Positions 3 to 32,178 of a stretch of DNA of 64,000 nt are shown piece by piece. The stretch is from Candidatus Neomarinimicrobiota bacterium. Lineage in GTDB: Bacteria; Fidelibacterota; UBA2242; B5-G15. The stretch spans positions 1 to 64,000 of the forward strand of contig JACDNV010000005.1 of assembly GCA_017656425.1 (NCBI GenBank), given 5' to 3'. The notes below the pieces were generated by a model. It saw only the letters and a program-made list of their open reading frames with translations, did no database searches and was not told the DNA's origin. The first letter of the stretch is position 1. Each line of letters begins with the position of its first letter. Both the position numbers and the translations under genes were made by a program.

Positions 3-2927
3 ATGAGTGGGTTTAAGTATCCAAGAGGATCTGAGTGGAGAAAATGGGATTTACATGTGCATACTAAATCTGATTCAAGTTATACATTTTCTTCTGATCA
101 TACAATTTCTATAAGAGAACAAAACGACGATGAGTATCCAAAAGTTTTTATAGAACATATTTATTCTATAGATAATATGGGTGCAATTGCAATAACTGAT
201 CATAATAAGGCAGATTGGATTGATAAAATTATTGAAGCTAATGAATATTTTTCAAAACAAAATAACCTTAAAGAAGAAAACGTGATAACAATTTTTCCCG
301 GGGTTGAAATAGAAAGTAGTGATGGTATACACCTTTTAGTGATTTTTAATCCAGAAACTCAATCTGATGTGGTTAATAGAAATTTTAGGCGTGCTACCTG
401 GAGAGAGACAATAGAGCATTTTTTAACAGCAATACGAATTACGAGTACAAACAATTCTTCTAAGACTACGGAAGAGATAATGGAAGAGGCTGAAAAATGG
501 GATGCGATTTGCATTTTTGCCCATGTTATAGGTAACAGAAAAGGATTTTTTGGGATTTCAAGTGGAAATACAAAAAAAAGAATTTATAGCCACAGATTGA
601 CTCAAATTTTTCAGATACCTATTAATGGTATCTTGGATATCGGAAAGAAAAATATTATTGAAGGACGTAATACACAATATTGCGATGATAAAGGCATCCC
701 TAAGTCAATCTGCTGTATAACCTCAAGCGATGCTAAAAGTTTGGCTGATATTGGAAGAAACAATTTATGGATTAAAGCCGACCCTACATTTGAAGGTTTA
801 AAACAGATAATTTATGAGCCTGACGAGAGGGTTTACATAGGTGAAGAGCCTCCGCGTAAGATTGAAAGAAATAAAGTAATCAGATCAATTACAATCTCTA
901 ATTCAAATAACTGGTTTGAAGACAAGCCAATTCTATTGAATGAAGGATTAGTAAGCATTATAGGAGGGAAGGGAACAGGTAAGACCGCTATCTTAGACTT
1001 AATTGCTTATGCTACAGAAAGCTACAAATGTTATGAGAAAGATGGGAATAAATCTAAGTCATTCTTAAAGAAGGCATTTAAAGAGTTAAAAGGAGCAAAG
1101 ATAAAGGTTGAATGGGAAGATGGTAATTCTGATGAGAAAGAGATCAAAGATAAATTAGAAGAATTCGTTAAAGAGGGTAAAGTGAGATACTTGCCTCAAG
1201 ATTATGTTGACCAGTTATGTTCTGAAATAGGGAAAAATGAACTTGAAAGGCAAATTGAAGATGTAATTTTTCAAAAAATTCCTCTAGAACTTAAGGCTAC
1301 ATATACAGATTTTAAAAGTTATAAGGATGCTCAATTAAAAGTGATAAATAATAATAAAAAGAGAGTTGCACAACAGATACGAGATATAAATTCTCAAATA
1401 TATCAGCATAAGTTATTAATCAAATCTAAGCCCACTAAAAAAGAAGATATTAAAAAGATTGGAGAAGAGATAAAAAGGTTTGAGAGAGAAATTGAAAGAA
1501 TATCAGAGGCTGTAAAAGACTCTGAAGAACAAAAAGAAATTTTAACTAAACTCCAAGCTCTTACCGAGAAAAAATCCAATCTTGAGAAGACAATTTCACG
1601 GTTAAAAACTAAATTGTTAAAGATAGAAGAGATAAAAAGTGAAGTTGCCATATTTTTAGAAAATTTAAGAGAGTTTTTAGATGAATTAAAAAAAGATCTT
1701 GAGGATATAGGTGTTAAAAAGGAAGTCATAGAAAAAGTAAGAGTAGTTTTATACCCAGAAGATCTTGAGCAGGTACTTGATGAAAGGAATAAAATAATTG
1801 AGACTAAAATTAAAAAGAGGCAAACGAAATTAAATGATATTCTTAAGGATATTCACAAAGAAAACGGCAAGATAAATCTTGAAAAGTCAAAACAGGATAA
1901 AATTAAAGAGATAAATAAATCGTTATCAGAATTAAGAAAGAAAAAAGATTCTTTGAATGCTGACATTAAAAAAATTGAGGATGCAGAGAAAGAATTACCT
2001 CAATTGTTAGAGAATAGAGAAAGTCTTTTCCTAAATTATTTTGAATTAATTTTTGAGGAAAAAAAGAGACTAGAAGAGATTTATTCTCCATTAGAAAATA
2101 TCCTAAAATCCAGTGGAGAAGAAAATGAAAAATTATTTGATTTTGCGGTTAAGTTTAATTTTGATGTAGACTCAATGGCAGACGAAGGACATGAGCTTAT
2201 AGATTTAAGAGCAGAGGGAGAGTTTCGTCAGTCAAGACCAGAGAAACTTAAAGAAAAATTAGAAGAATTGAAGTTTAGCTTAAATTTAGATAATAAAGAA
2301 ATGTCAGAAGCTGATAAGGAATCCATAAGGAAATTTTTAAAAAGGGTTGAAGAATTATTTACTAAAGAGGGGAAAAGTCTTACTTCTCAGTTAAAGGAAA
2401 AAAGATATACTGAACAAGATTTTTACAGTTGGCTTTATTCTACGAGGTATTACGATATAAGTTATTCCATTAAATTTAATGGCATAGAACTTAATAACTT
2501 ATCACCGGGATTAAAAGGAGTAGCACTTCTTATCTTATTCTTAGAACTGGATAAAGAAGACAAAAGACCGTTTTTAATTGATCAGCCAGAAGAAAACCTT
2601 GATAACCGATCAATTTATCATACACTTGTGAGATATTTCAGAGATGCCAAGAAAAGAAGACAGGTAATTATTGTTACTCATAATCCTAATCTTGTTGTGA
2701 ATACAGATTCCGAACAAGTAATCGTTGCCGATTTTGACAGAAGTTTAGAGAGACAAAATTCAAGAATATTTTATGTTAGTGGCTCTCTTGAAAATACATC
2801 TAAAGACGATTCAGCAGAAATTCTTTTAGAAAAACAAGGTATCAGAGAACATGTCTGCTTAATTTTAGAAGGCGGAAAGGATGCATTTGAAAAAAGAGAA
2901 AAGAAGTATGGCTTTAGAACAACCTGA
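3..2927 (+). CDS. PHP-domain / SMC-like AAA ATPase (TrlF-like)
   Basis: A 974-aa protein joining an N-terminal PHP phosphoesterase-type metal site to an SMC/RecN-like ABC ATPase. The PHP motif is DLHVHT at residues 16-21 (H18, H20). The Walker A is GGKGTGKT near 321. A long Lys/Glu-rich coiled coil spans about 440-690. The ABC signature and Walker B region (SPGLKG, then LIDQPEENLD near 860) and a switch His in VTHNPN follow. The order matches the family often named TrlF-like AAA ATPase, common in defence islands. Its biochemical role is not established here; nucleic-acid sensing or cleavage is inference. The ATG lies at the very start of the window, and the residues after it look like a natural N-terminus, but upstream partners (for example a methylase) cannot be seen. 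The end overlaps the next gene by 20 bases, so the two are probably translated together. Confidence 0.85.
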   Translation: MSGFKYPRGSEWRKWDLHVHTKSDSSYTFSSDHTISIREQNDDEYPKVFIEHIYSIDNMGAIAITDHNKADWIDKIIEANEYFSKQNNLKEENVITIFPGVEIESSDGIHLLVIFNPETQSDVVNRNFRRATWRETIEHFLTAIRITSTNNSSKTTEEIMEEAEKWDAICIFAHVIGNRKGFFGISSGNTKKRIYSHRLTQIFQIPINGILDIGKKNIIEGRNTQYCDDKGIPKSICCITSSDAKSLADIGRNNLWIKADPTFEGLKQIIYEPDERVYIGEEPPRKIERNKVIRSITISNSNNWFEDKPILLNEGLVSIIGGKGTGKTAILDLIAYATESYKCYEKDGNKSKSFLKKAFKELKGAKIKVEWEDGNSDEKEIKDKLEEFVKEGKVRYLPQDYVDQLCSEIGKNELERQIEDVIFQKIPLELKATYTDFKSYKDAQLKVINNNKKRVAQQIRDINSQIYQHKLLIKSKPTKKEDIKKIGEEIKRFEREIERISEAVKDSEEQKEILTKLQALTEKKSNLEKTISRLKTKLLKIEEIKSEVAIFLENLREFLDELKKDLEDIGVKKEVIEKVRVVLYPEDLEQVLDERNKIIETKIKKRQTKLNDILKDIHKENGKINLEKSKQDKIKEINKSLSELRKKKDSLNADIKKIEDAEKELPQLLENRESLFLNYFELIFEEKKRLEEIYSPLENILKSSGEENEKLFDFAVKFNFDVDSMADEGHELIDLRAEGEFRQSRPEKLKEKLEELKFSLNLDNKEMSEADKESIRKFLKRVEELFTKEGKSLTSQLKEKRYTEQDFYSWLYSTRYYDISYSIKFNGIELNNLSPGLKGVALLILFLELDKEDKRPFLIDQPEENLDNRSIYHTLVRYFRDAKKRRQVIIVTHNPNLVVNTDSEQVIVADFDRSLERQNSRIFYVSGSLENTSKDDSAEILLEKQGIREHVCLILEGGKDAFEKREKKYGFRTT

Positions 2928-4305
2928 ATCACACGCCACCGAATTCAAATCCTCCTGGTGGGATGAGTATCTTAAGATAATCTGTGCTTTTGCCAATACA
3001 GATGGAGGAGAGTTGATAATTGGGGTGAATGATAAAGGTAAGGTTATAGGAATTAAGAATGCCAGAAAATTATTAGAGGATTTACCAAATAAGATAAGAA
3101 ATAAACTTGGAATAACTCCTTTAGTTACTGTAGAAAGAAAAAATAGGGAAGAAATTATCTATATTAAAATCTTCCCTTCTACTGTTCCTGTCTCATACAA
3201 TGGCAGATATTATGTTAGAAGTGGTAGCACCAGCCAGGAAGTAAAAGGTAACGAATTAATACATTTCCTGCTAAAGAAGACGGGTAGGACATGGGATAGT
3301 CTCACTTGTGAAGCAAGTTTTTCTGATATAGAAACTTCTGCTGTGGAAGAATTCAAAAGCCTTGCTAAAGACAGGACACCAAGTATCTCTAAACTGGATT
3401 CCACGAAGAAAATTTTTGTCAATCTGGATCTTATTGCTGATAAAAAAGAGATGACAAATGCAGCTATTTTACTCTTTGGAGAAAACCCTCAGAAATTTTT
3501 TATCTCAGCAAAAACAAGAGTTGGGAGATTTAAGACATCTACCGATATTATTGATACAGTAATAGCAGAAGGCAATCTTTTTAAACAATTAGAAACGGTT
3601 TTAGAGGCAATGAAGAAACATCTGAACCTAAGATTTGAGATAAAGGGCATTCAAAGACAAGATATATGGGACTATCCAATAGAGGCAATAAGAGAAGCAG
3701 TAATTAATGCCCTTATTCACAAAGACTATTCAAGCACAGCAGAAATTCAAATCAAGATATATGATGACAAAATATGGATATGGAATCCGGGAAAACTTCC
3801 TCCCCAGCTTACTGTGGATGACTTAAAAAAGGAACATTCCTCATATCCAAGAAACCCTTTAATAGCAAACGCTTTTTATCTTGCTGGTTTTATTGAGAGA
3901 TGGGGATCAGGCACAAGAAGAATTGTAGATTTATGTAAAGCACAGGGATTGCCTGAACCTGAATACAAAGAAGAACAGGGAGGATTTAGTGTCTGGTTTT
4001 ATAAGGATATTTATACAGAAGAAAATTTGAGAAAGATGAGGTTAAATGAAAGACAGATTAAGGCAGTAATGTATGTTAAACAAACAGGGAAGATAACGAA
4101 TAGAGAATATCAGCAGGTTTGTAATACTTCAGAAAGAACCGCAACAAGAGATTTATCTGCATTAGTTTCCATAGGACTTTTTGAACAAAAGGGTATTACC
4201 GGAAGAGGAACTGAATATGTTTTAAGAAGCCATAAAAACGCCAAAGACGCCAGAAAGACGCCAGAAAGACGCCAAAAAAAGAAAGACAGAGAGAAAAAGG
4301 AATAA
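2908..4305 (+). CDS. Schlafen/AlbA_2-domain ATP-binding protein with C-terminal winged helix
   Basis: About 465 aa. The N-terminal AlbA_2 (Schlafen-type) domain is marked by ATEFKSSWWDEYLK, AFANTDGGELIIGV and FPSTVPVSYN. A central GHKL-like ATP-binding fold follows (IREAVINALIHKDYSS, then IWNPGKLPPQ and ERWGSGTRRIVDLC). A C-terminal winged helix (NTSERTATRDLSALVSIGLF) ends the recognisable part. This is the classical RecG-related or transcriptional-regulator-like family, frequent in defence loci. I prefer the ATG at 2908 because conserved sequence begins right after it; an upstream in-frame ATG at 2881 adds nine residues. It overlaps the PHP-ATPase gene and ends two bases before the helicase gene, so the three form one transcription unit. 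The last 25 codons are encoded by an 11-bp tandem repeat and are low-complexity Lys/Arg. A regulatory or effector role is inference. Confidence 0.8.
   Translation: MALEQPESHATEFKSSWWDEYLKIICAFANTDGGELIIGVNDKGKVIGIKNARKLLEDLPNKIRNKLGITPLVTVERKNREEIIYIKIFPSTVPVSYNGRYYVRSGSTSQEVKGNELIHFLLKKTGRTWDSLTCEASFSDIETSAVEEFKSLAKDRTPSISKLDSTKKIFVNLDLIADKKEMTNAAILLFGENPQKFFISAKTRVGRFKTSTDIIDTVIAEGNLFKQLETVLEAMKKHLNLRFEIKGIQRQDIWDYPIEAIREAVINALIHKDYSSTAEIQIKIYDDKIWIWNPGKLPPQLTVDDLKKEHSSYPRNPLIANAFYLAGFIERWGSGTRRIVDLCKAQGLPEPEYKEEQGGFSVWFYKDIYTEENLRKMRLNERQIKAVMYVKQTGKITNREYQQVCNTSERTATRDLSALVSIGLFEQKGITGRGTEYVLRSHKNAKDARKTPERRQKKKDREKKE
4236..4278 (+). repeat. 11-bp tandem repeat at gene 3' end
   Basis: Two perfect copies of GACGCCAGAAA (4246-4256 and 4257-4267), with an imperfect copy on each side. 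The unit is not a multiple of three, so a copy-number change shifts the frame at the end of the AlbA_2 gene. The frame of the next gene is open back through this repeat. Confidence 0.8.
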
Positions 4306-4307
4306 TT

Positions 4308-7247
4308 ATGAATAACACCTTTTTACAAAATATTATAGAAGATATCAGCATATCTACCTTACCATATAACTGGAACTATTTTAACTTAGAGGGCTTTTCA
4401 AAAGATAAAAGGTTGTGGGATTTTCAACAGAAGGCGGTTGAGAATGCTATCAAGGTACTATGGAAATACTACGAAGATTTGAAAGATTTTGTAAATGGAG
4501 AAAAGCTTGAGGTAAATCAGGAAAGAAAAAAGAAATTATTTGAATGGTATAAAAATAATAGTTTAGAAGAAGATTTAGATATAAGATTAGATAAACTGAA
4601 CAGAAAAATATATAATTTACTTACTGAATATTACACTCCTAAAGATGGAAAGATACCTTATTGGAATTATATTAACCGCATGTCATTCTGGATGGCAACA
4701 GGGAGCGGTAAGACTCTTATCATCATCAAACTTATCAAAATCTTGAAACAGCTTATGGCAAGAGGGGAAATCCCTGAATACGATATTTTATTTCTAACCC
4801 ATAGGAATGATCTGATTGAACAATTTAAAAGGATGGTAGATGAGGTAAATTATGCGGACGCAGAAAAAATTGAACTTCGGGAATTAAAAGAATACCCTGA
4901 AGTAAAAAGGCAAATGTCTCTATTTGGAACACAGGTATTTTACTACAGGTCTGATAACATTGGTGATGAGCAGAAGGAAAAAATTATTGATTTCAGAAAT
5001 TATGACAATGACGGGAAATGGTATATATTCTTAGATGAAGCACACAAAGGGGATAAAGAAGATTCTAAAAGACAGCATATTTATTCCATCCTTTCAAGAA
5101 ATGGATTTTTATTTAATTTTTCTGCTACCTTTACTGATCCAAGGGACGTTATAACCGCCGCATTTGAGTTTAACCTCTCATCATTTATTGAAAAGGGTTA
5201 CGGAAAACATATCAGCGTATTAAGACAAGAAATACGGGCATTTAGAGAGGATGAAGACTACAGTGGAGATGAAAAGCAGAAAATAGTTTTGAAGTCTTTA
5301 ATTCTACTAACATATTCAAAAAAATTTTATGAAAAAATAAGTAAGATTGAGACAAAACTCTATCACAAGCCATTACTTTTAACCCTTGTCAATTCTATCA
5401 ATACAGAGGATGCAGATTTAAAGCTCTTCTTTAGAGAAATTGAGAGGATTGGGAAAGGGGATATTGAAGAAATGGTCTTTAAAGAGTCTATAGATGAACT
5501 ATGGGAAGAATTTTTTAAAGAAGAGACTGAGTTTGTCTTTGAGGATGGAAAAAGGATAAAGATAGATGAAAATATATTCAAAGGCATTACATTGAAAGAT
5601 ATATGGAAGTATGTTTATAACTCTGATAGCCCTGGTGAGATCGAGATTTCCTTTAGACCATCAGATAAGAAGCAGGTTGCCTTTAAACTTACTACATCTG
5701 ATAAACACTTTGCTTTAAGTAAAACTGGAGACATACCATCCTGGTTGAAAGAAGAATTAGGAAGATTCAATGTAAACCATCGGTTTGAGGAGGAAGGATT
5801 CTTTGAAAGAATAAATCAGGATGACTCACCAATTAATATTTTAATGGGGTCCCGTGCCTTTTATGAAGGATGGGATTCTAATAGGCCAAACATTATAAAT
5901 TTTATCAATATTGGTACAGGGACAGACGCTAAGAAATTCATTCTGCAGTCTATTGGAAGAGGTATAAGAATTGAACCGATTGCAAATAAAAGACGAAGGT
6001 TAGTAGAACTTTATAATAACAAAGAAATAGATGATAATCTGTTTGGAAAAATAAAGGATTTATGTCGTCCTTTAGAGACATTGTTTGTTTTTGGGACAAA
6101 TAGAAGTGCTTTGCTTACAGTTATCAAGGAGCTTAAACGTGAGAGCAAAGAAAAAGGCCAACAAATCTCTCTTTTTGTAAATAAATGTGCTGAAAAACAA
6201 ACACTTTTAATACCCGTTTATAAATTGGCAGATTATCCCCTAATGAAGAAACGAGGATTGGCTAAGTTTGAGATTTCAAGGGCAGATTTTGAAATCTTGA
6301 AGAAATATTCTGAATATATAAATGATGATAGAATTTTTATTATGAACTATGATACTACGCCAGAAAAAGTTAGGGTTTTGAGAAAAACTTTATATAATTC
6401 TGATCAGTATTATAAATATGCAGAGCGAAGTTTCAAGAATATCCATATATTTGTACAGAGACTATTTGATTACTTTAGTGTAACTCCGGAAGAACTGAAA
6501 GAGTTTAAAGAGTTGGATGAAGAGATAAGACATTTTAGAAATATCAAGGTCTATCTTAAAAGCATAGATAAAATACTTAAGAGTATTGAAATGGTAAGAG
6601 ATTATCCAATAAGGATAAAAGAACTACAAAGCCAATATGGGAAAATTCCACCAGATGAATATGACAGAAGGAGAGGAAAAATAAAAAAAGAGACAATTTT
6701 TGAGAGTGATCATAAAAAAATTACAATTAAATATGTTGCCAATCACTATTACCTCCCACTTATTTTATCTGATGAGGAAAAGATAGATTACATCAAGCAT
6801 ATAATTAAAACCCAAAGTGAAGTAAACTTTGTAAATGACTTAGAACAATATTTAAATGAAAATAGAAGTAAGTTCAATGATTTTGATTGGTGGCTTTTCA
6901 GTAAATTAGATGAATCCCTTGATGAAGTTTATATCCCTTATTATAACCCTGAAACAAATAGAATCAGCAAGTTTAAGCCGGATTTTATTTTCTGGTTCAA
7001 GAAAGGGGATAACTACTTTATTGTTTTTGTTGATCCAAAGGGAACAGAACATACAGGTGCTTACAGGAAAATTGATGGGTATAAGGTATTGTTCGAGGAA
7101 AACGGAAAAGAGAAGGTTTTTAATTACAACGGATTCAAAGTCAGAATAAAGTTGCTACTAAGACCGAAGGATATTTCAAAAGCCCTCGATGAGTATAAAC
7201 AATATTGGTTTTATAACATAGAAAAGATGTTAAAAGTAATGGCTTGA
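4308..7247 (+). CDS. Type III restriction-like DEAD/DEAH helicase with C-terminal nuclease
   Basis: 979 aa, related to type III restriction Res subunits. The Walker A is ATGSGKT at 130-136. The DEAH box is LDEAHKGD near 242. A SAT-like motif (FNFSATF) and helicase motif VI (QSIGRGIRIEP near 547) follow. The C-terminus carries KPDFIFWF followed by FVDPKG near 889-911, the pattern of the PD-(D/E)XK nuclease fold found in type III Res proteins. It therefore looks like an ATP-dependent DNA translocase and nuclease. No Mod methyltransferase lies inside the window: the next gene downstream is housekeeping, and the upstream side is cut off. It starts two bases after the AlbA_2 gene. The reading frame is full length with no visible lesion, in contrast to the decayed defence operon at 22.7-32.2 kb. 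Confidence 0.85.
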   Translation: MNNTFLQNIIEDISISTLPYNWNYFNLEGFSKDKRLWDFQQKAVENAIKVLWKYYEDLKDFVNGEKLEVNQERKKKLFEWYKNNSLEEDLDIRLDKLNRKIYNLLTEYYTPKDGKIPYWNYINRMSFWMATGSGKTLIIIKLIKILKQLMARGEIPEYDILFLTHRNDLIEQFKRMVDEVNYADAEKIELRELKEYPEVKRQMSLFGTQVFYYRSDNIGDEQKEKIIDFRNYDNDGKWYIFLDEAHKGDKEDSKRQHIYSILSRNGFLFNFSATFTDPRDVITAAFEFNLSSFIEKGYGKHISVLRQEIRAFREDEDYSGDEKQKIVLKSLILLTYSKKFYEKISKIETKLYHKPLLLTLVNSINTEDADLKLFFREIERIGKGDIEEMVFKESIDELWEEFFKEETEFVFEDGKRIKIDENIFKGITLKDIWKYVYNSDSPGEIEISFRPSDKKQVAFKLTTSDKHFALSKTGDIPSWLKEELGRFNVNHRFEEEGFFERINQDDSPINILMGSRAFYEGWDSNRPNIINFINIGTGTDAKKFILQSIGRGIRIEPIANKRRRLVELYNNKEIDDNLFGKIKDLCRPLETLFVFGTNRSALLTVIKELKRESKEKGQQISLFVNKCAEKQTLLIPVYKLADYPLMKKRGLAKFEISRADFEILKKYSEYINDDRIFIMNYDTTPEKVRVLRKTLYNSDQYYKYAERSFKNIHIFVQRLFDYFSVTPEELKEFKELDEEIRHFRNIKVYLKSIDKILKSIEMVRDYPIRIKELQSQYGKIPPDEYDRRRGKIKKETIFESDHKKITIKYVANHYYLPLILSDEEKIDYIKHIIKTQSEVNFVNDLEQYLNENRSKFNDFDWWLFSKLDESLDEVYIPYYNPETNRISKFKPDFIFWFKKGDNYFIVFVDPKGTEHTGAYRKIDGYKVLFEENGKEKVFNYNGFKVRIKLLLRPKDISKALDEYKQYWFYNIEKMLKVMA

Positions 7248-22863: not shown

Positions 22864-23377
22864 GGTTATGTGCCTTTTTAAAATCTGGTTTATGAATTTC
22901 TTTTTTTATTCTTTCTCTTGCTTTTTCAAAACTTTTCTCATCAGTAGGAGGAGTAGTTTGAACAAGCCAGTTATATTTTTCTCTTATGCGTTTCACTTCA
23001 TAATAAAAATCTTTTCCATCTATAAAATCTTTGAAACTTTCATATAAAGATCTTGCATCATGTTTCAAAACAGTAAAACTTTTTGCAGCAAATTCATGTT
23101 CTCTTGCTTTACTTTCTGGTTCTAAAATTATGTTTGTAATTGCGATTATAGACGATATTAGAGTAATCCAGCTTACCCAATTGGGACTACCTAAAAGTAA
23201 AGCCAAAGCAGATACTCATGTAATAATGACAGGTATAAACTTAAACCAAAAAGATTTTTTCCATAAACTGGCTGCAAATAAATAATGCGCCTCAGCAGTA
23301 TAAGTTGAGTCTTCTTCTATCCGTCTACATTCATTAACTAAATTTTCTATTTTTTTGTTGCTTTTGAAATTTTCCAT
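22856..23377 (-). pseudogene. SLATT-type two-helix membrane effector, one in-frame TGA
   Basis: The frame from the ATG at 23377 gives ENFKSNKKIENLVNECRRIE, then TAEAHYLFAASLWKKS, a first membrane helix (FWFKFIPVIIT), a TGA at 23216-23218, then without frame change VSALALLLGSPNW, a second helix (WVSWITLISSIIAITNII) and a helical domain ending HKPDFKKAHNHA. Two helices followed by a conserved helical region (EHEFAAKSFTVLKHDARSLY) match the SLATT family of predicted pore-forming effectors that accompany SMODS/CD-NTase enzymes. The stop falls between the two helices, so no full effector can form without readthrough. The next gene upstream is the CD-NTase. Confidence 0.65.
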
Positions 23378-23381
23378 GGTA

Positions 23382-24308
23382 TTATCCATAAGCAGGAAAA
23401 GGTTCTCCAAATAATTCTCTCCATCCTTCAATAGCTTCTCTACCATCAAATTTGATAAGAGAATTGCAATAATTGCATATTTTTCCAAATATTTCTGCCA
23501 AACTGTTTTTGTCAATGGAATAATTATCAGCATTAGAAGACTTACTTCCCGGGATTTTTAAAGATTTCAAAACTTCATCTTTTGCAATACAAAAGAAACC
23601 ACATAATAAAAGCGGAGAGGGAATCGGGTATATCTTATTCTTCAAATAAGATACAATGGTAGGAATAACATTTACAGCCAAAACCTCAAGGTGGTAGGAT
23701 TTCATCTCAGGAAACAAATTTCTTTTAGCAGCTTTTAACATTTTTATTGTAGGAATTAAATATCTATCTGTTTCTTCGTTCTTTTTTGAAATATATTCAG
23801 CATCATAGTCGTAATCGGCAAGGATCCATCTATTCCTTTTAGGTATCCAATAACCTCTACCTTTAGGAAAAGCTGGAGTTCCATCAGCATATTCTCCTAT
23901 ATTATCAATATAAGCAGGTACAAGCTCGACTTTGGTATTATTGGCATAGTTGATAATAATGGTAGGACTATCTGTTTCTGGTCCCATCTTATCATAAGTT
24001 TCGTGTTCTGAAATTATATCTTCAACTTTGTCTAAACCATCTTTTGGTGTTATACCGCCAACATCTACCCATCGTGCAAAACTCCCAAGGATGACTAAAA
24101 TATCAATGTCAAATGTATCATTTGAACGAGGTTGAATTCTTGTCTTTCTCTGCAAAGAACCGATTAACTTTGTTTTTATCGAAGGATCATGATTTTCAAT
24201 TCATGATCTAATAGCATTGTGATGGGTTGTGATTTTTTTCTGAAAACTTTCGCTCAACTCTAATCTGCTTTTAAATTCGCTAAATGCTTGTGATATAGTA
24301 GTAGCCAT
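23382..24308 (-). pseudogene. CD-NTase (SMODS nucleotidyltransferase), one in-frame TGA
   Basis: The complete frame opens at an ATG at 24308 (ATTISQAFSEFKSRLE) and meets a TGA at codon 36 (24201-24203). It continues in the same frame for 272 codons. After the stop comes the nucleotidyltransferase core: LIGSLQRKTRIQPRS (G50-S51), then FDIDILVILG (D67, D69). It then has VELVPAY and the helical C-terminal half (IPTIKMLKAAKRN) of SMODS-type CD-NTases. These enzymes make cyclic oligonucleotide alarms in CBASS-type phage defence. With the SLATT gene next to it, this is a minimal CBASS-like pair. An internal TTG restart after the stop would lose the first helix and the Gly-Ser motif. Earlier stretches are uninterrupted, so the lesion looks recent. 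Confidence 0.65.
24185..24208. repeat. Perfect 8-bp inverted repeat around the CD-NTase stop codon
   Basis: GATCATGA (24185-24192) and TCATGATC (24201-24208) are separated by 8 bases. In the mRNA the premature UGA lies in the 5' arm of this stem. Chance is possible in such AT-rich DNA. Confidence 0.5.
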
Positions 24309-24310
24309 AT

Positions 24311-24709
24311 TTATGCCCTTTTGCTTTTAAAATCCTTCCTTCCCTTTATCTCCTTCCTCTCATTCCCAAAAACATCCATATAAATTATCATCATTCTATC
24401 CGTTAGTTTCTCTACAGGAAATCCGATCTCATAATTATTTTTCTCTAAATCAGAAGCAAACCATTTATCGTCCATATCAAAATATTCGCCGTTATAATCA
24501 TAATCGATCATTACTATTGAAAGAGATTCTAATCCTAATTCTTCTTCCGGGATTGGTTTTTTGGAGATGATGTTGCTTCTAAATTCTTTAATTTTGATCA
24601 TTGCTTCATCAAATAAAACATTTTTTTGTTTTTCAATATAATATTCTACCCGAGGACCGTCTTCAGGTATTCTATTAGTTATTTCCCATAAATCTTCACT
24701 TTTTGACAT
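24311..24709 (-). CDS. Unknown 132-aa protein between methylase and CD-NTase
   Basis: The product runs from MSKSEDLWEITNRIPEDG to a basic C-terminus. The central part has SLSIVMIDYDYNGEYF, then DMDDKWFASDLE and DRMMIIYMDVFGNE. It is mostly beta-strand-like and acidic in the middle. I do not recognise the family with certainty; the IDYDYNG and IYMDVFGNE stretches faintly recall C-terminal regions of some DNA methyltransferases. I choose the ATG at 24709 (purine-rich site upstream, 14-base overlap with the methylase gene); an ATG six codons earlier exists. It ends two bases before the CD-NTase start. It is one of the few genes of this operon with no lesion. Confidence 0.6.
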   Translation of the reverse strand: MSKSEDLWEITNRIPEDGPRVEYYIEKQKNVLFDEAMIKIKEFRSNIISKKPIPEEELGLESLSIVMIDYDYNGEYFDMDDKWFASDLEKNNYEIGFPVEKLTDRMMIIYMDVFGNERKEIKGRKDFKSKRA

Positions 24710-26263
24710 AGACTTCTCTTTCCACAATCTTTATTTCTTCATCTGTCAACTCGTAAAGTTTGTAAACCAACTGATCAATTTGGCGTTGGTATTGTTTTAC
24801 TTTTGCCTGTTTTTGTGGATTTTCAAGATAGTCTTCGGATTGGGTGCGGGAGAGGATTTTGTCGACAAGGGTTTCAATCTGCTTAATGGTATGATGGCTT
24901 TGTGATGATATTGATGGTATTGGGATTTCTTTTAAATAAGGAATATCAAATCTTAAATAACCACTAGCCATATGAACCGTTTCAAATTTTTTACTGTACC
25001 AATAATTAATTAATTTTGAATTAAGAATACCGAGAATATAAAGCATGTTAATTTTACAATCAAAAAGTATTGTAGCTTTCCCGATAAATCTTTGTTCACT
25101 ATCAATTGCACATTGAAGTCTCCGTGTAACACGGGCAATAACTATTTTATCTTTTTGTTCAAAAACCGATATTACACTGTCTGAATATATGTTGTAAGGT
25201 ATATATTCTCCCTGCCAATCTATATAGTACTTTTTGATATCACTAGTTTGCAAAATAGGTTTATATCGTTTTTTCTGCTTATCTTCAAGTTTAAGATATT
25301 GGGACTTGTTAATTTTCTTCTTACCATAACCACTTTGGGAAGTACCCAAGATCATATTACAGACAGATCCCAACTTAATGTTTCCGTTCTCGATTTTCCT
25401 TATTAGTTTATAGTCTTGGTTAATTGGTATTAGTAAAGAGGATTCATTCAAAATCTCGTTTTTAGTTACAGAAAAAGTTGTATCGCCAAGTTTATCTAAA
25501 TGATTGCAAGCGTTGATTTTAATTTCATAATTAGATTCATTATTTTTCACAAACAACCAGATCATTGGATACGTCGCAACTTCTTGAAAAACCTTGATAT
25601 ATGAAACATCTATAATAAATTTAATCGTTGTGTTTTCTAATATAAACTTTCTTAGTCCCAAGCCTGAGTTTATAGATAGGAAATGATTGGGATTAATAAA
25701 TACAAAAATACCTTTATGTTTCAGTAAATAAAATCCTCTTTCTATAAAGTACATGTAAAGGTTAGGCCTTTTCGATTTTATATTCGTTTTATAATGAGAT
25801 ACTGCTTTAATAATATTTTTTGAAATATCCCTATAGTCGACATACGGTGGATTTGCAATCACCAATCAAATCCACCTTTTTCGTGGAATACTTCAGAGAA
25901 ATATACTTCAAAATCAAATTCCTTGCGTCCCTTCGTAATCTTACTTATTAATTCTTCAATCTTACTTTTATATTCCTGCTTCTTTGTTGGATTAGTTTCG
26001 TTGAAATAAAGTGGTTTTAATTTTTCAAGTTGGTTAAATAGTTCGTTATTAAATAAATCCTTTTCTATGCCTAAAAGAGAGTTGCCACATACAATCTTAT
26101 AATCCAGATTAGGCAGGGGTTTAATCTTTTTTATGTCTTCTTCATCCACTATAAGAGAGAGCCAAAGGCGGAGTTTGGCAACCTCGCAAGCTCCCGCGTC
26201 AATATCTACGCCGTAGATAGAGTTTTCTATGCACTCTCGCTTGAAATTGTAAGCGGATCGTAG

Positions 26264-26283
26264 CACAGACATTCTTGTCTGTG
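26264..26283. repeat. REP-like palindrome 3
   Basis: CACAGACA-TTCT-TGTCTGTG, perfect 8-bp arms with a 4-base loop, on the distal side of the RAYT. Confidence 0.8.
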
Positions 26284-26313
26284 TTCCTTTTAGCGTATTA
26301 TCATTTCTACCTT

Positions 26314-26333
26314 CACAGGCAGAAATTCCTGTG
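26314..26333. repeat. REP-like palindrome 2
   Basis: CACAGGCAGAAATTCCTGTG, an imperfect version of the same hairpin, directly after the RAYT C-terminus. Confidence 0.75.
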
Positions 26334-26919
26334 TTACTTTGATATAGCCAAAATTTGTCCGCAGATAAATTTGCCTTAGCTGGATTGGACATTATATATT
26401 TGAGAAAATAAAGATATTGTGCTTCACTCCGTACAATATGGTCATAAGATTCTTCCATCCAGATTTTCTTACCTGTAGTTCCTAAGAGTTTGTTAATCTC
26501 TCGGGCACTTGTTCCTTTTATTCCTTTAAGTAATTCAGAAAGCGAATATCCTGAAATAGGTTCAAGAAGAATATGAACATGGTTTGGCATAATAACAGCA
26601 GAGTGAACTCTCAATCGTTCTCCATCAAATTTCATTATACATTCTTTTAACTTTTCTCTTACGTCATCCCGAGCTAGAATACATGAACCATATCCCGCAT
26701 CAATCCACTTTTCAAAACGTTTCCCAAATTTTTCATTGTATTCTTGCCATTCTTGCTCTGTCCACGGTTTTGGATGAGACTTTTCCCATATTTTGTATTC
26801 CTTTTTCCATGTTTCAATTTTTTCCTGGGGCAAAGAATCTGAAAGTCTAAAAGTAATCCAGTAAATAGCACCAGTTTTGGTCCAGTGAGGTAAATTGCGA
26901 CGGGTAATGTGAATATCAT

Positions 26920-26939
26920 CACAGGCAGGAATGCCTGTG
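26920..26939. repeat. REP-like palindrome 1
   Basis: CACAGGCA-GGAA-TGCCTGTG, perfect 8-bp arms, at the RAYT N-terminal side. It marks the junction where methylase sequence stops. Confidence 0.8.
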
Positions 26940-28289
26940 CTACTCTCTAAATAATAAATCAAACTCTGCTGGCACATATAGTGAACAATTTCTCTCGGAG
27001 TGTAATAAACCCCAAATTTTTTATTGAATCGCTTCTCCAAACTCTTTTTACCGCTTGCCAGAGCTTTTTTATATTCACAAAAATTATCAGGCCTTATGGC
27101 ATTGAATTTTTCATATAATTTACCGAGAAGTTCCGGGTCAATGGCGACTTCTTTTTCAAGGGGTTCGTCTTCTTTAACTGTAAAATTGAAACGGTCAAAT
27201 ACATCAAGAATACCATCTCCAATATCGCCTTCCGGGGTTCTGTGGCTATTGGAAAAAAGTTCATCTGGAAGGAGTATATCTGTATGTACCCAGTCATAAC
27301 CACCAATTGGTTCAAAAAGTCCGCCATTTAAGAAGGGAATCTTACAATTGAAATCTTTAGACCATGTTGGATCGAGTTGATCACTTCTTGGATTATTAAG
27401 GGTATTGTAGAAAAGGAGTTCGAGGTAATTGTTAAAAAAGTTTTTCTTTTCTTTTTTACATTTTTCAAATAAATCTCTTATGAAATTTTTATCGCCTTCT
27501 CCCCATTTTTTATCCTGAGAAACACCAAACCATCCTTTTTTCTGTAAGAAATACAAAAATACAATCTGACCCAAGAGCTTTTTGGCAAACTCAACGGTAT
27601 TAATATTTTTCGATTCAAAATCTTCCCTAACTGCTCGGTTGTGTTTAATTATATTATCCAGGGCATCTACTGTGAGGATAAGAAGATCACGATACTTTTC
27701 AAAAAATTCTTTTGTAACAACCTCAACATTAAAAGCTTCCTCAAGTTCCTCAAGTGTTGGTTTTTCATCTCTCTCAAGAAGGGGGACAAATCTACTTTGT
27801 GCGGTATGGCTTTTTTCGTTTCTGCCTACAAGAAATGACCATCTTTTTGTTGGTGTAAATTCTTCTTTTACTTTTATTTTGCCAGTAGGAGTTTCTTCAA
27901 TCTTATAATCTATTTTGACAAGTGAAAAGCGCCAATCTTCTGAATCAGGAGAAACAAAAGCGACAAGTGCAGCGTCTTTCCATTTCACTCCTCTGCTTCC
28001 TTTAAGATACCAAGCGATAAAATTTCTTTGAGCAGTCCTTGCACGAGTTAAAGATGTCTCTCTTTTAAGTTTTACAATTAATAAATCAATTTCATTCTCT
28101 CCATCTGTGTATTTACCTATTCTTTCAAATGAGTTTATATATTGCTCAAATGCATCCGGAATATAATTGCCTCTATATATAAATGTCTTTTCTTCGTAAT
28201 CTTTAAGGAGATTTTTTAAGAATATAATAAATTTATCCTTATTGAATTCGCTTTCAAATGTTTCAATTACAATTCGTTTTGCTAATTCC

Positions 28290-28640
28290 CTATTCATTTT
28301 TTTTGTAATCTTTTAAAATTTCTTCAACCGTTTCTTTTAATACTGATATTTCTTTTTTAACTGTCTTCCACACAACTTCATAGATAATACCAAAGTATTC
28401 GTGAATTAATTTATCTCTCATCCCTGCTACTTCTCTCCATTTAATTTGAGGATATTTTTCTTTAATAGATTTGGGAATCTTTTTAGATGCCTCTCCAATG
28501 ATTTCAAGGCTTCTTACAAACGCTCTTTTTAGATGTTCATTGTTTATAAAAGACTCATAGTCCAGATTTTCGCTTTCTTTTAGAAGGTAATTACATTCAG
28601 TTTATATGTCTACCAAATAATCAGTAATTTTTCGTTTCAT
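28290..28640 (-). pseudogene. HepT-type HEPN toxin, one in-frame TAA
   Basis: The ATG at 28640 overlaps the MntA stop (ATGA). The frame gives [12 protein letters not shown], a TAA at codon 13 (28602-28604), then TECNYLLKESENLDYESF and a full HEPN/DUF86 domain. The catalytic motif Rx4HxY is R75-DKLI-H80-E-Y82. Homologues have a hydrophobic residue at the stop, so a single TTA to TAA change explains it. Downstream the frame is clean to the TAG at 28290, which overlaps the methylase ATG by eight bases. The toxin (an RNase or tRNA-modification target in HepT/MntA systems) is therefore silenced while its antitoxin is intact. Confidence 0.75.
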
Positions 28641-28930
28641 AAATAGATTACCTCTTTCAGTATTACTTTACCGATATGAGGTTTTAAAGCCCTTTTTATA
28701 ACAAGGTCAACCTTTATTTTAAGTTTGTCTGAAAGAAAATTTTCCATCTCAATGAATTCAATTAAAGACGGAACTTCATCAAATTCTACCAGTATATCAA
28801 GGTCACTTCTTTTTTTCTGTTTATTTTTTACATAAGAACCAAAAATGCCGATTTCTTTGACCTTATATTTTTCTTTCAAGAAAGGTTTAAGTTTTATCAA
28901 TGTCTTTTTTATTTCTTCAATTTTTTTCAT
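28637..28930 (-). CDS. MntA-type minimal nucleotidyltransferase antitoxin
   Basis: 97 aa. The minimal nucleotidyltransferase motif is [20 protein letters not shown] (G31-S32, D43, D45). In characterised HepT/MntA pairs the antitoxin modifies (AMPylates) the HEPN toxin on a tyrosine near the Rx4HxY motif. The gene is intact. Its ATG overlaps the end of the extended helicase frame by ATGA, and its stop overlaps the HepT start by ATGA, showing tight coupling. Confidence 0.85.
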
Positions 28931-31900
28931 CTCTCTCCTTCTGTGAGATACATTGATAATATAACTTCTCTTTTCCCTTCTATATTTCCTGAAAACTCTG
29001 CATAATGACTTTCAAGAAAGCGAAAAGAAATTTCTTTTTATAACACTGCAATTACTTTTAATGGATTTTTTATCTCTTCAACTTTAAGTTTTTGAACTGC
29101 TTTTAGTGCTCTTTGGACTGTCTTTTTTGGTAAAGCACCTTTTTCAAGTTGCTCTATAACTTTTCTGAGGTATTCTTCCTGGTCTTCTGTTAATTTTTTA
29201 CTATTTTTCTGCACCACTTTTAAAATTTTAAATAATTTAGTTGCACTATCAGTTCCACCTTTACGGCGGGTTTCAATAACTTCTTCAACAGTGGCATTGA
29301 AAAATGCTGTTTTATTTTTATTAAGTAACTCATAGTAATCTTCTAATGGGAGTTTTTTCCTCTGTTCATTTATTGAACTTTCAAGAATTTTTGCTGCATT
29401 AAGAAAGTCAAGTTCAATAGGTTCTTTTGTTTTTTTATCTGATAAAAAGAATTTCATCAGTTTCCCTTTTCTAAAGAATGTAAGGAGGGCATTAGGCTGG
29501 GCAAAATCTTTCAAAGATTGATTAAAAACCTTTGCAGAACGTGCTTTTTTAGGAAGTCGTTTTATTTTTTCAAAGAGTTCTGGATTTTTATCACGAATAT
29601 CCTCTATAACTCTTAAGTATTTGAGTTCACTTTCCTCTGTCTCTTCTTGTGTAATTGTTTTTTTAGAAAGTAATCTATCAAAAAGCTCGTGAGAAGAGAC
29701 AGGTTCTCCTTCAGTTAAAATTGATGCATCACCACCAAGCAATGTTAAAAAGGCTTCTATTTTTGAACGAGCAATATTGGTTAATTCTATTTCATTATCT
29801 GCCTGTTTTGTAGGGAAGAAGTTAAATGTATAAATTTTATCAAAAGGAGTATCAATACGGTTAATTCTACCTACTCTTTGCATTAAGCGTGTAGGATTCC
29901 AGGGGATATCATAGTTTATTACAACGTTTGCCCGATGAAGATTTACACCTTCAGATAGAACTTCTGTCGAAATCAGTATTTTATAATCATCTTTTTTATT
30001 TCTTGCTCTTGCATCAAAGTTTTCTATTACCTTGTCACGAACCTCTTCTGGAGAATTGCCGTGGAAAAGCAGAGCTATTTCTCCAACATTTTGGGTGAGA
30101 TACTCTGCAGTTTCTTTTGACTCTGTAAATATAATTAGTTTGTTATTTCTAAGAAGTGGATGTTCTTTTAAGTTTTTTAGTAGTGTTTCCAATTTAGGAT
30201 CCCTTTTTATGTTCTCCCATATTAATATTATTTTTTTAAGAATTTCGAGGTCCTTCTCAAGTGCATCTTTAAATTCTTCTCTAAAATCTTTGCTATCATA
30301 CCTTTCAGCTTTTCCTTCATCGATCAATCTCTGAACGCTTTCATCATCTCCTTGTTCTAAAAGTTCGAAAATTTTATTTATGTACTGTTTGCTTACATAA
30401 ACATTACCTTTTTTGTATTCTTCAATAAATTTCTGGTAAGAATAAGTAAATCTATCAATGGTCTTTTTAAAGGCATAAAAGCTACTCTCTAATCGTTTTA
30501 CAAGTAGAACTTTCATAAATCCGCCCATATTTTTCTGAGACTGTTCCTCAAGTTGTGAAATTCTTTTCTTCAGATAGAGTAAAGGAGTATAACGGGCATA
30601 ATTAAAATCCTGGGTTATTAATTGGATTGTTTCCATAAAGATTTTATCTTCTTCATCATTCAACTGATAATAAAATGGTTTTGGGTCTTCTATCTCGGGA
30701 AATTTAACATTATTTCTCTTTAAATCCCCTGTAAAGTATTTTTCAATTTCTGTCCTCGTCCTTCTGACCATTAAATATTTTAAAACTCTTTCTCGTATTT
30801 CTTTTGAATTTGCTTTGGTTATTTCAAGAAACTTATCATAATCTTTCTGACGGTTAACTTTTTTTAACCTTCTCTCAAGCCTTGCAAAAAACTGTTCAAG
30901 ATTAGTGGCTCCTGGAATAGTACTTCTCTTTGGATTCTGGAAGAGCTTTATCTGAGTAAGAATGTCTTTTGGGGAATTATTATAAGGAGTGGCAGAAACT
31001 AAAATAACTCTTTTGCCACGACATATTTCAGCGATATCTTCGTAACTAACCGTAGTTTCTGTCCTGAAGCGGTGTGCTTCATCTATTATGATATTCCTAT
31101 ATTCTCTATACTTTATCAATTTTTTTGCTTTATCGAGTTTACCAGTTGAAACAAAATCTGCAGGAATACGAAAATCAGAGAAAACATTTCGCCATGAACC
31201 AGGGTTGTTTGGGTTGAGAAGGGATGGAGGTGCAACAACAAGTGTTCTTCCATCGAGTTGCCCTGTCAGCATAGCAGAGACGTAAGTTTTTCCAAGTCCT
31301 ACAACATCAGAAATAAAAACTCCTCCATACTCTTCCAGTATCTTTTTGGCATTTAAAACTGCTTGTTCCTGATACTCAAATCTTTTAAAATCAGAGGGTA
31401 AATATTTCATGAAAATTTCATCTGTTCTGCTTAGTTCATCTTTAAAATATTCATACAGAAACTTGAGATAAAGTTCATAGGAAGAAATATTGGGATTAAG
31501 CCAGGTCTTTTCTGTTACTGTTTGGATGTATCTATCTGTAACATCAACAGCGTTTTTCCACAACTCTTCAAATCTTTTTTTAGCAAATTCATAATCGGAA
31601 CGATTTTTTAGCTCTACATTGAACTCGAGATTATCCTCTAAACCTGATTGAGTAAAATTGCTTGATCCTGTAACAACTCTTCCAACATCTCTGTCTCCTT
31701 CTCTAAAGGTTATAATATATAATTTTGCATGAATATTTTGAGAAGGGTAGGCTCTTATTTGTAGTTTACCTGTTTTTATCCATTCAATAAATTTTTTAAC
31801 TCCTTCTTCGATATATTGGCTGTCTTCTGAATCTTCCATTTCTTCTATTATCGTATTCTCTATTTTTTGCTTTGTCTCAGTATAAGATAATTGAAATGAT

Positions 31901-32178
31901 TGCTGAGACTTACCTTGAGCAGTTTTTATCAAATTGTAAGTTTTTCTTGTTGTTCCAATCCCAATAAGAATCCTTATTCTTTCTGTTTTTTCCAATGCCC
32001 TATACAAATTATAAAATCCACTTACATAGAAATAAGCAACTAAACAATCAAAAAATCTGGCATATTTTATTAATTGTTCAAACCTATCTTTTAAGGTTTT
32101 ATTCGGTTCGTTTACAATGAAAGTTAAATCTAAAGTATTTATTGCATTTATTTGCTCTTCAGTAAGTATCTTTTCCAT
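28927..32178 (-). CDS. PLD-domain SNF2-like helicase; likely C-terminal truncation
   Basis: The main product is 1046 aa (32178 to the TAA at 29038). The N-terminal phospholipase-D-like domain has IHAKLYI followed by [10 protein letters not shown] near 165-190. A helicase core follows: Walker [15 protein letters not shown]-like [17 protein letters not shown], and motif [15 protein letters not shown]. Such proteins accompany type IIG-like methylases in defence loci and may act as translocating nucleases. After the TAA the same frame stays open for 36 codons ([11 protein letters not shown], then [11 protein letters not shown]) and its TGA overlaps the MntA ATG by ATGA. The tail reads like a natural C-terminus, so the TAA at 29038-29040 is probably a nonsense mutation removing only the tail. 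The helicase core is intact. Confidence 0.7.

Follow-up and report, generated by a model that had tools for sequence, protein, structure and literature searches.

RAYT transposase cassettes carried in frame within type IIG methylase genes and other host genes

A RAYT transposase enclosed by REP palindromes is read in frame within a type IIG restriction-methylase gene of a Candidatus Neomarinimicrobiota bacterium, and this arrangement is probably one case of a wider habit, in which REP-RAYT-REP cassettes ('REPtrons') sit in frame in loops of host genes. As anatomy, the carriage of RAYT cassettes in frame by host genes is well supported. The prevailing view regards RAYTs as immobile genes, present once per genome next to the REPs that they generate; their repeated in-frame occurrence in other genes, even in the sole alaS of a genome, indicates that RAYTs do move, and that enzymes needed by the cell can carry a whole transposase domain. 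The spread of RAYTs and of in-frame REP pairs (REPINs) becomes directly testable, because the host gene supplies a clean empty site for comparison.

The window RAYT and its methylase gene

The window, namely the whole stretch of 64,000 nucleotides that was analysed, holds on its minus strand (28297..25859) a single open frame of 812 codons composed of methylase, three REP palindromes, RAYT and methylase again (Table 1). As an earlier sequence-only reading had described, the frame runs without a stop from methylase through a palindrome, a HUH transposase and two more palindromes. Past the inverted palindrome the methylase picks up again at YNFKRECIENSIYGVDID. Against the PADLOC profile REase_MTase_IIG (PDLC03596) the ORF scores 799 bits, profile positions 1-451 being aligned to residues 1-451, and a phmmer search with the whole 812-codon ORF against the PDB gave no match.

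Table 1. Features of the RAYT-bearing methylase gene in the window
Feature	Position	Strand	Remarks
Type IIG restriction-methylase, N-terminal part	26945..28297	-	up to YTPREIVHYMCQQSLIYYLE; homologues across many phyla; REase_MTase_IIG positions 1-451
Nuclease-like EIDLLIVK region	28070-28093	-	inside methylase N-terminal part, which also has a helical part
5' REP palindrome, GTAG-tagged	26920-26943	-	encodes SSTGIPAC; putative deletion joint
RAYT (HUH tyrosine transposase) domain	26333..26911	-	Pfam, NCBIfam, motifs; own start and stop both absent
HUH motif NHVH	26573-26584	-	within RAYT
Tyr motif YIMSNP	26381-26398	-	within RAYT
Middle REP palindrome, degenerate tag GTAA	26315-26338	-	encodes SNTGISAC; sequence, folding
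Inverted 3' REP palindrome, GTAG-tagged	26260-26283	+	encodes TQTRMSVL in methylase frame; sequence, folding
Methylase resumption	25862..26251	-	YNFKRECIENSIYGVDIDAG...GGFDW, then frame end; Eco57I profile 1-76
Remaining methylase	24696-25865	-	different frame; NPPY, Eco57I profile 78-171, TaqI-like specificity domain

The transposase, which occupies about 190 residues between the palindromes, had been called almost complete, but its HUH domain is in fact complete, with both the HUH motif (NHVH) and the catalytic Tyr (Y..NP) in place. Its match to Pfam PF01797 (Y1_Tnp) exceeds the cut-off of that family, and its top NCBIfam match is NF047646 REP_Tyr_transpos (E 2e-16, 60 bits, below the cut-off of 80). 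Identity as an IS200/IS605 transposon was rejected on the single genomic copy and on a score of 30 bits against the TnpA model NF033573, whose cut-off is 55. No ATG, GTG or TTG lies between the 5' REP and the RAYT, in agreement with the earlier remark that the transposase has no start of its own; the nearest upstream starts, a TTG 23 and an ATG 28 codons ahead of LPHW, both fall within the methylase, and no stop precedes the resumption of the host. Having neither start nor stop of its own, the element is thus a RAYT domain rather than an autonomous gene.

The outer two palindromes are mutually inverted in the manner of a REPtron, with GTAG at 26943 (-) and 26260 (+). When folding was compared with that of shuffled DNA, z values of -5.1 and -5.6 were obtained for the GTAG-tagged palindromes and -2.8 for the degenerate middle one. 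Throughout the 2.8-Mb genome no further RAYT copy was found, in frame or otherwise, and the genome-wide count of REPs yielded one additional palindrome only, with 3 mismatches.

No SAM motif I could be found in any of the six frames of 24401-28600, as had been noticed earlier, and alignment with an uninserted homologue (L025) indicates that about 100 methylase residues, motif I included, are gone. The return of the frame into the methylase holds at YNFKRECIENSIYGVDIDAG and extends only to GGFDW, NPPY being absent from this frame and present in a separate ORF. The fusion that had been predicted therefore stands as an in-frame RAYT read together with its host; a functional methylase-RAYT-methylase is precluded by the break of the frame ahead of NPPY. 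To judge from its sequence, the window copy appears to be a dead, degraded methylase, with motif I lost and the frame lost just ahead of NPPY.

The surroundings of the gene were also recorded. A PLD/SNF2 helicase gene (29038-32178, -; PADLOC HKD+Snf2 / DrmD-like) adjoins the methylase, and its homologues L231 and L237 have an in-frame RAYT of their own; between methylase and helicase lies a nucleotidyltransferase gene (28301-28930, -; PADLOC PDC-S09), with a possible HEPN/DUF86-like partner adjoining. A CBASS-type cyclase gene (23216-24155, -; PADLOC oligonucleotide cyclase), overlapped by an other-frame ORF (23216-23533) and possibly frame-broken, is part of a defence-gene cluster, and the start of the window (3-7247, +) holds further defence genes, namely a Ppl-like PHP-ATPase, an AlbA-like gene matching pAgo-associated models and a type III restriction-like helicase.

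Relatives at the same site and the loss of motif I

With the methylase N-terminus as query, 80 homologues of 44-72% identity were recovered, three of which carry a RAYT, namely L014, L017 (Acidobacteria) and L068 (Smithella). Their RAYTs are 59-63% identical to that of the window over the whole cassette and 64-69% over the core, and are located in frame at the window's site, 3' of an intact DPA(V/I)GSGAFP(V/I)GM. Genome searches added two further same-site relatives, L236 from the Nitrospirota sample and L238 from the Planctomycetota sample, so that five relatives combine the same RAYT lineage and the same site with a retained motif I and an open frame. The sequence-only reading had treated homologues at this site in other genomes as a point against itself; they exist in five genomes, and they make the case broader rather than trivial.

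At the Smithella locus the gene is complete, its 1314 codons staying open up to a stop. In the predicted structure of its core, the methylase on either side is mostly confident (blocks mostly 70-97 pLDDT), the REP linkers fall below pLDDT 50 and the intervening domain is moderately confident, and in Foldseek this core falls among adenine methylases (CamA and PglX, for example).

These relatives bear on the earlier claim that the RAYT had replaced motif I. A direct replacement, in which a single event put the RAYT in the place of motif I, is what the window suggests when taken alone, but it is hardly credible given that the RAYT-bearing relatives retain motif I, which places a deletion beside the insertion, and that the window REP looks like a chimera of two loops. 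The homologues have two loops that accept inserts, loop A from SLINYL to motif I and loop B from motif I to YNFKREC, and many RAYT-free homologues have in-frame palindrome-like peptides in them. GC-rich perfect hairpins are about 14-20 fold denser in loops A and B together than in the rest of the gene, the counts being small, and with loose settings of the hairpin count the loops were not enriched. In L017 as in L068, one forward REP lies in loop A and a second one immediately 5' of the loop-B RAYT. The left flank of the window 5' REP equals that of loop A in L017 (two codons past SLIYYL, with a full GTAGC tag), and its right flank is of the loop B type, running directly into the RAYT. This combination suggests that two direct in-frame REPs recombined, with the loss of about 100 codons including motif I. 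The loss of motif I is thus most likely a secondary REP-REP deletion beside the insertion, as read from this one sequence, although both the deletion and the frame loss of the window could be assembly or sequencing errors.

A wider artefact of assembly, in which the RAYT cassette was mis-stitched into the methylase at REP repeats, would suit metagenome-quality data, the repetitive nature of REPs and a motif I that is missing precisely between them. It is nevertheless very improbable, since the REPs and RAYT occur nowhere else in the genome, bar the 3-mismatch palindrome, and equivalent junctions are present in five other assemblies from other phyla.

Within the same methylase family, RAYTs are also found in frame in loop A (L174, L242 and L144), those of L242 and L144 belonging, like their REPs, to other families. 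In Chloroflexi, a free-standing RAYT-like match (L015:9773-10357) lies a short way 3' of a type IIG methylase of this family.

In-frame RAYTs in other host genes

RAYT relatives were sought in about 1,820 genomes from five phylum samples, together with a phylum represented by two genomes, and the frames around them were then read. Counting the window and the three loci from the N-terminus search, about 39 loci, mostly from metagenome-assembled genomes, have an in-frame RAYT within a host gene, and what had been described as an unusual in-frame event is therefore real but no one-off. The hosts comprise the type IIG family of the window (nine loci, six in loop B with the window included and three in loop A), DUF1156 methylases (nine), other methylases (six), helicases or restriction subunits (five, PriA and two of the PLD/SNF2 kind among them), AMP ligases (five), alanyl-tRNA synthetase, alaS (three), PurH (one) and an FAD/FMN oxidoreductase (one). 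Pfam searches on a representative subset identified host domains around the RAYT, on both sides in most cases, for PriA, PurH, alaS, AMP ligase, EcoEI-R, helicases and other methylases; for the remaining loci, the host was identified from its homology with members of the family. The genomes G330 and G1821 have three RAYTs each within methylase genes.

Not all candidates were accepted. The long frames of the GC-rich L190-L193, L234, L235, L249, L250, L252, L254 and L255 were rejected as chance or unproven, and L185 and L248, with a host domain on one side only, were excluded as ambiguous. A plasmid search returned distant RAYTs only, and a search of viral contigs no RAYT. One frame (L175:4060-9492) is a methylase of 1811 codons with a RAYT and tandem REP-like peptides, VEQTFLSVSSPEQTQAEMPAPHSQHQ and VEQAFLPVTQQQTQTEMSLSRS, in about 6-8 repeats.

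The sole alaS of G1486 and that of G1507 bear a RAYT. In G1559 (L253 / L258 / L259) the sole alaS has a RAYT and two overlapping frames upstream of it, a break that is possibly a sequence error or a programmed frameshift. The RAYT of alaS is positioned between the aminoacylation and editing parts, and a truncated enzyme might be enough in the genes that bear it. The fusions are presumably made and working, for which the sole-copy alaS genes are the strongest case, and supposedly immobile RAYTs can probably reside in proteins that the cell needs, translated as part of them.

Frame bias, exchange with REPINs and evolution

All 17 non-self loci at which a RAYT lies between two halves of a gene have it on the same strand and in the same frame, and none is out of frame. 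These loci were fetched regardless of frame, the gene being recognised by a different family member and self-matches being left uncounted; the chance expectation for same strand and frame is about 1/6, and the 17 loci are not all independent. In several fusions (L017, L236, L176, L180, L183 and others) there is no ATG, GTG or TTG up to 40 codons ahead of the RAYT, so that the RAYT there is hardly producible except as a fusion.

A given host loop may hold a RAYT in one gene and a bare REP pair in another. In AMP ligases, in-frame REP pairs occupy three host loops, and in the alignment of this family loop 2 carries a RAYT in L183, L184, L187 and L188, and a bare REP pair in L180, which has its RAYT in loop 1. 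In loop A of the methylases, L016 has a bare pair encoding QASSL...KQDACVT, and in its close relative L242 peptides of this kind flank a RAYT.

Several observations concern descent. The RAYT-bearing methylases come out as non-monophyletic in the methylase tree (lnL difference 137, p-AU 0.027, which is moderate), and the RAYTs of L068 and L238 are 75% identical, their hosts only about 48%. Fused RAYTs and free-standing ones are interleaved in their tree, with 22 label changes. Most fused RAYTs retain HUH and Y..NP, and their dN/dS is about 0.07-0.2, with dS largely saturated; this purifying selection may have been exerted while the element lived elsewhere. Two DUF1156 methylases, L178 and L179, share about 850 bp of near-identical DNA spanning the RAYT and its flanks, with dS of 0.33 in the rest of the gene. 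Two fresh insertions were rejected here because the identity continues into host DNA on both sides, and the pattern reads as a recent allele exchange, that is, recombination between alleles.

It could be supposed that the methylase family has domesticated the RAYT as a functional domain, which is passed on vertically and serves the restriction system, as all eight RAYTs of the window clade lie within type IIG-like methylases and catalytic motifs are retained. This is improbable in view of the patchy distribution (3/80 N-terminus homologues, in separate parts of the tree), the presence of window-clade members in loop A as well as in another methylase (L174, L175) and the residence of other RAYTs in unrelated enzymes.

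A stronger contender, plausible though somewhat short of an even chance, is that RAYTs and REPs insert at random and that only in-frame sense copies in tolerant loops survive, the element favouring neither frame nor site and the fused RAYT being a decaying passenger. Such a selection filter is compatible with the anatomy described here and differs on the route. In-frame REPs in loops are known and have been explained in that way (PMC3733652), they are common in methylase loops without a RAYT, and dispensable hosts, such as R-M genes, predominate. What it accounts for less readily is that no out-of-frame or antisense copy was encountered, even in dispensable methylase genes, that members of one RAYT clade occupy an identical site in methylase lineages lying apart from each other, and that the RAYTs remain conserved.

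Entry and persistence of RAYT cassettes

In the reading preferred here, a REPtron would have lodged in frame in a surface loop of the type IIG gene, just 3' of motif I, where the RAYT would be read as an additional domain on REP-encoded linkers. RAYT cassettes would enter host genes at loops that already bear, or tolerate, in-frame REPINs, either by transposition or by recombination via REPs, and persistence would be limited to copies with host, REP and RAYT in one open frame. For the window, two direct in-frame REPs may later have recombined and removed motif I in frame, and a separate frame loss ahead of NPPY would have left a dead methylase with an intact-looking RAYT. It is further conceivable, if rather doubtful, that RAYT cassettes act as in-frame 'homing' elements, that is, HUH transposases spreading between in-frame REPIN sites of conserved or essential genes, borrowing promoter, start and stop from the host, and sheltered since any frame-breaking decay kills the host gene too.

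Comparison with known systems

The intact relatives resemble Eco57I-like type IIG enzymes in their nuclease-like N-terminus, motif I, NPPY and TaqI-like specificity domain, and differ from them in that a RAYT is present as a further domain in the loop that follows (or precedes) motif I. The copy in the window has, in addition, neither motif I nor an intact frame. Inteins and homing endonucleases are in-frame elements of conserved, sometimes essential genes, and fused RAYTs share with them the in-frame position in conserved genes, as a functional analogy only. Identity as inteins was rejected since Pfam scans of the fused proteins revealed no splicing (Hint) domain and, unlike an intein, the RAYT is expected to remain in the protein.

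According to Nunvar 2010 (PMC2817692), inverted REPs invariably border RAYTs, and no IS-like mobility is apparent; the largest RAYT survey reported RAYT genes that had taken up REPs and kept their frame open (Quentin 2018, PMC6006769). RAYT proteins exceeding the expected length were left out of that survey as gene fusions or misannotations (PMC6006769), and the loci described here indicate that surveys with such a filter have missed a class; a search of the open literature found no earlier description of RAYT genes in frame inside host genes. Like REPtrons (PMC2817692, PMC6006769), the window element has a HUH-Tyr protein with Y..NP and inverted GTAG-tagged palindromes on either side, but unlike known REPtrons, which are separate genes, its RAYT is read inside a host gene with no start or stop of its own. 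In-frame intragenic REPs are known, and together with Rickettsia palindromic elements they often reside in DNA repair or RNA-binding proteins (PMC3733652). The fused cassettes resemble these elements in that the palindromes are read in frame within host-protein loops and the sites recur (PMC3733652), and in contrast to their inserts of about 20-82 residues without a transposase, a whole transposase of about 190 residues lies between the palindromes here.
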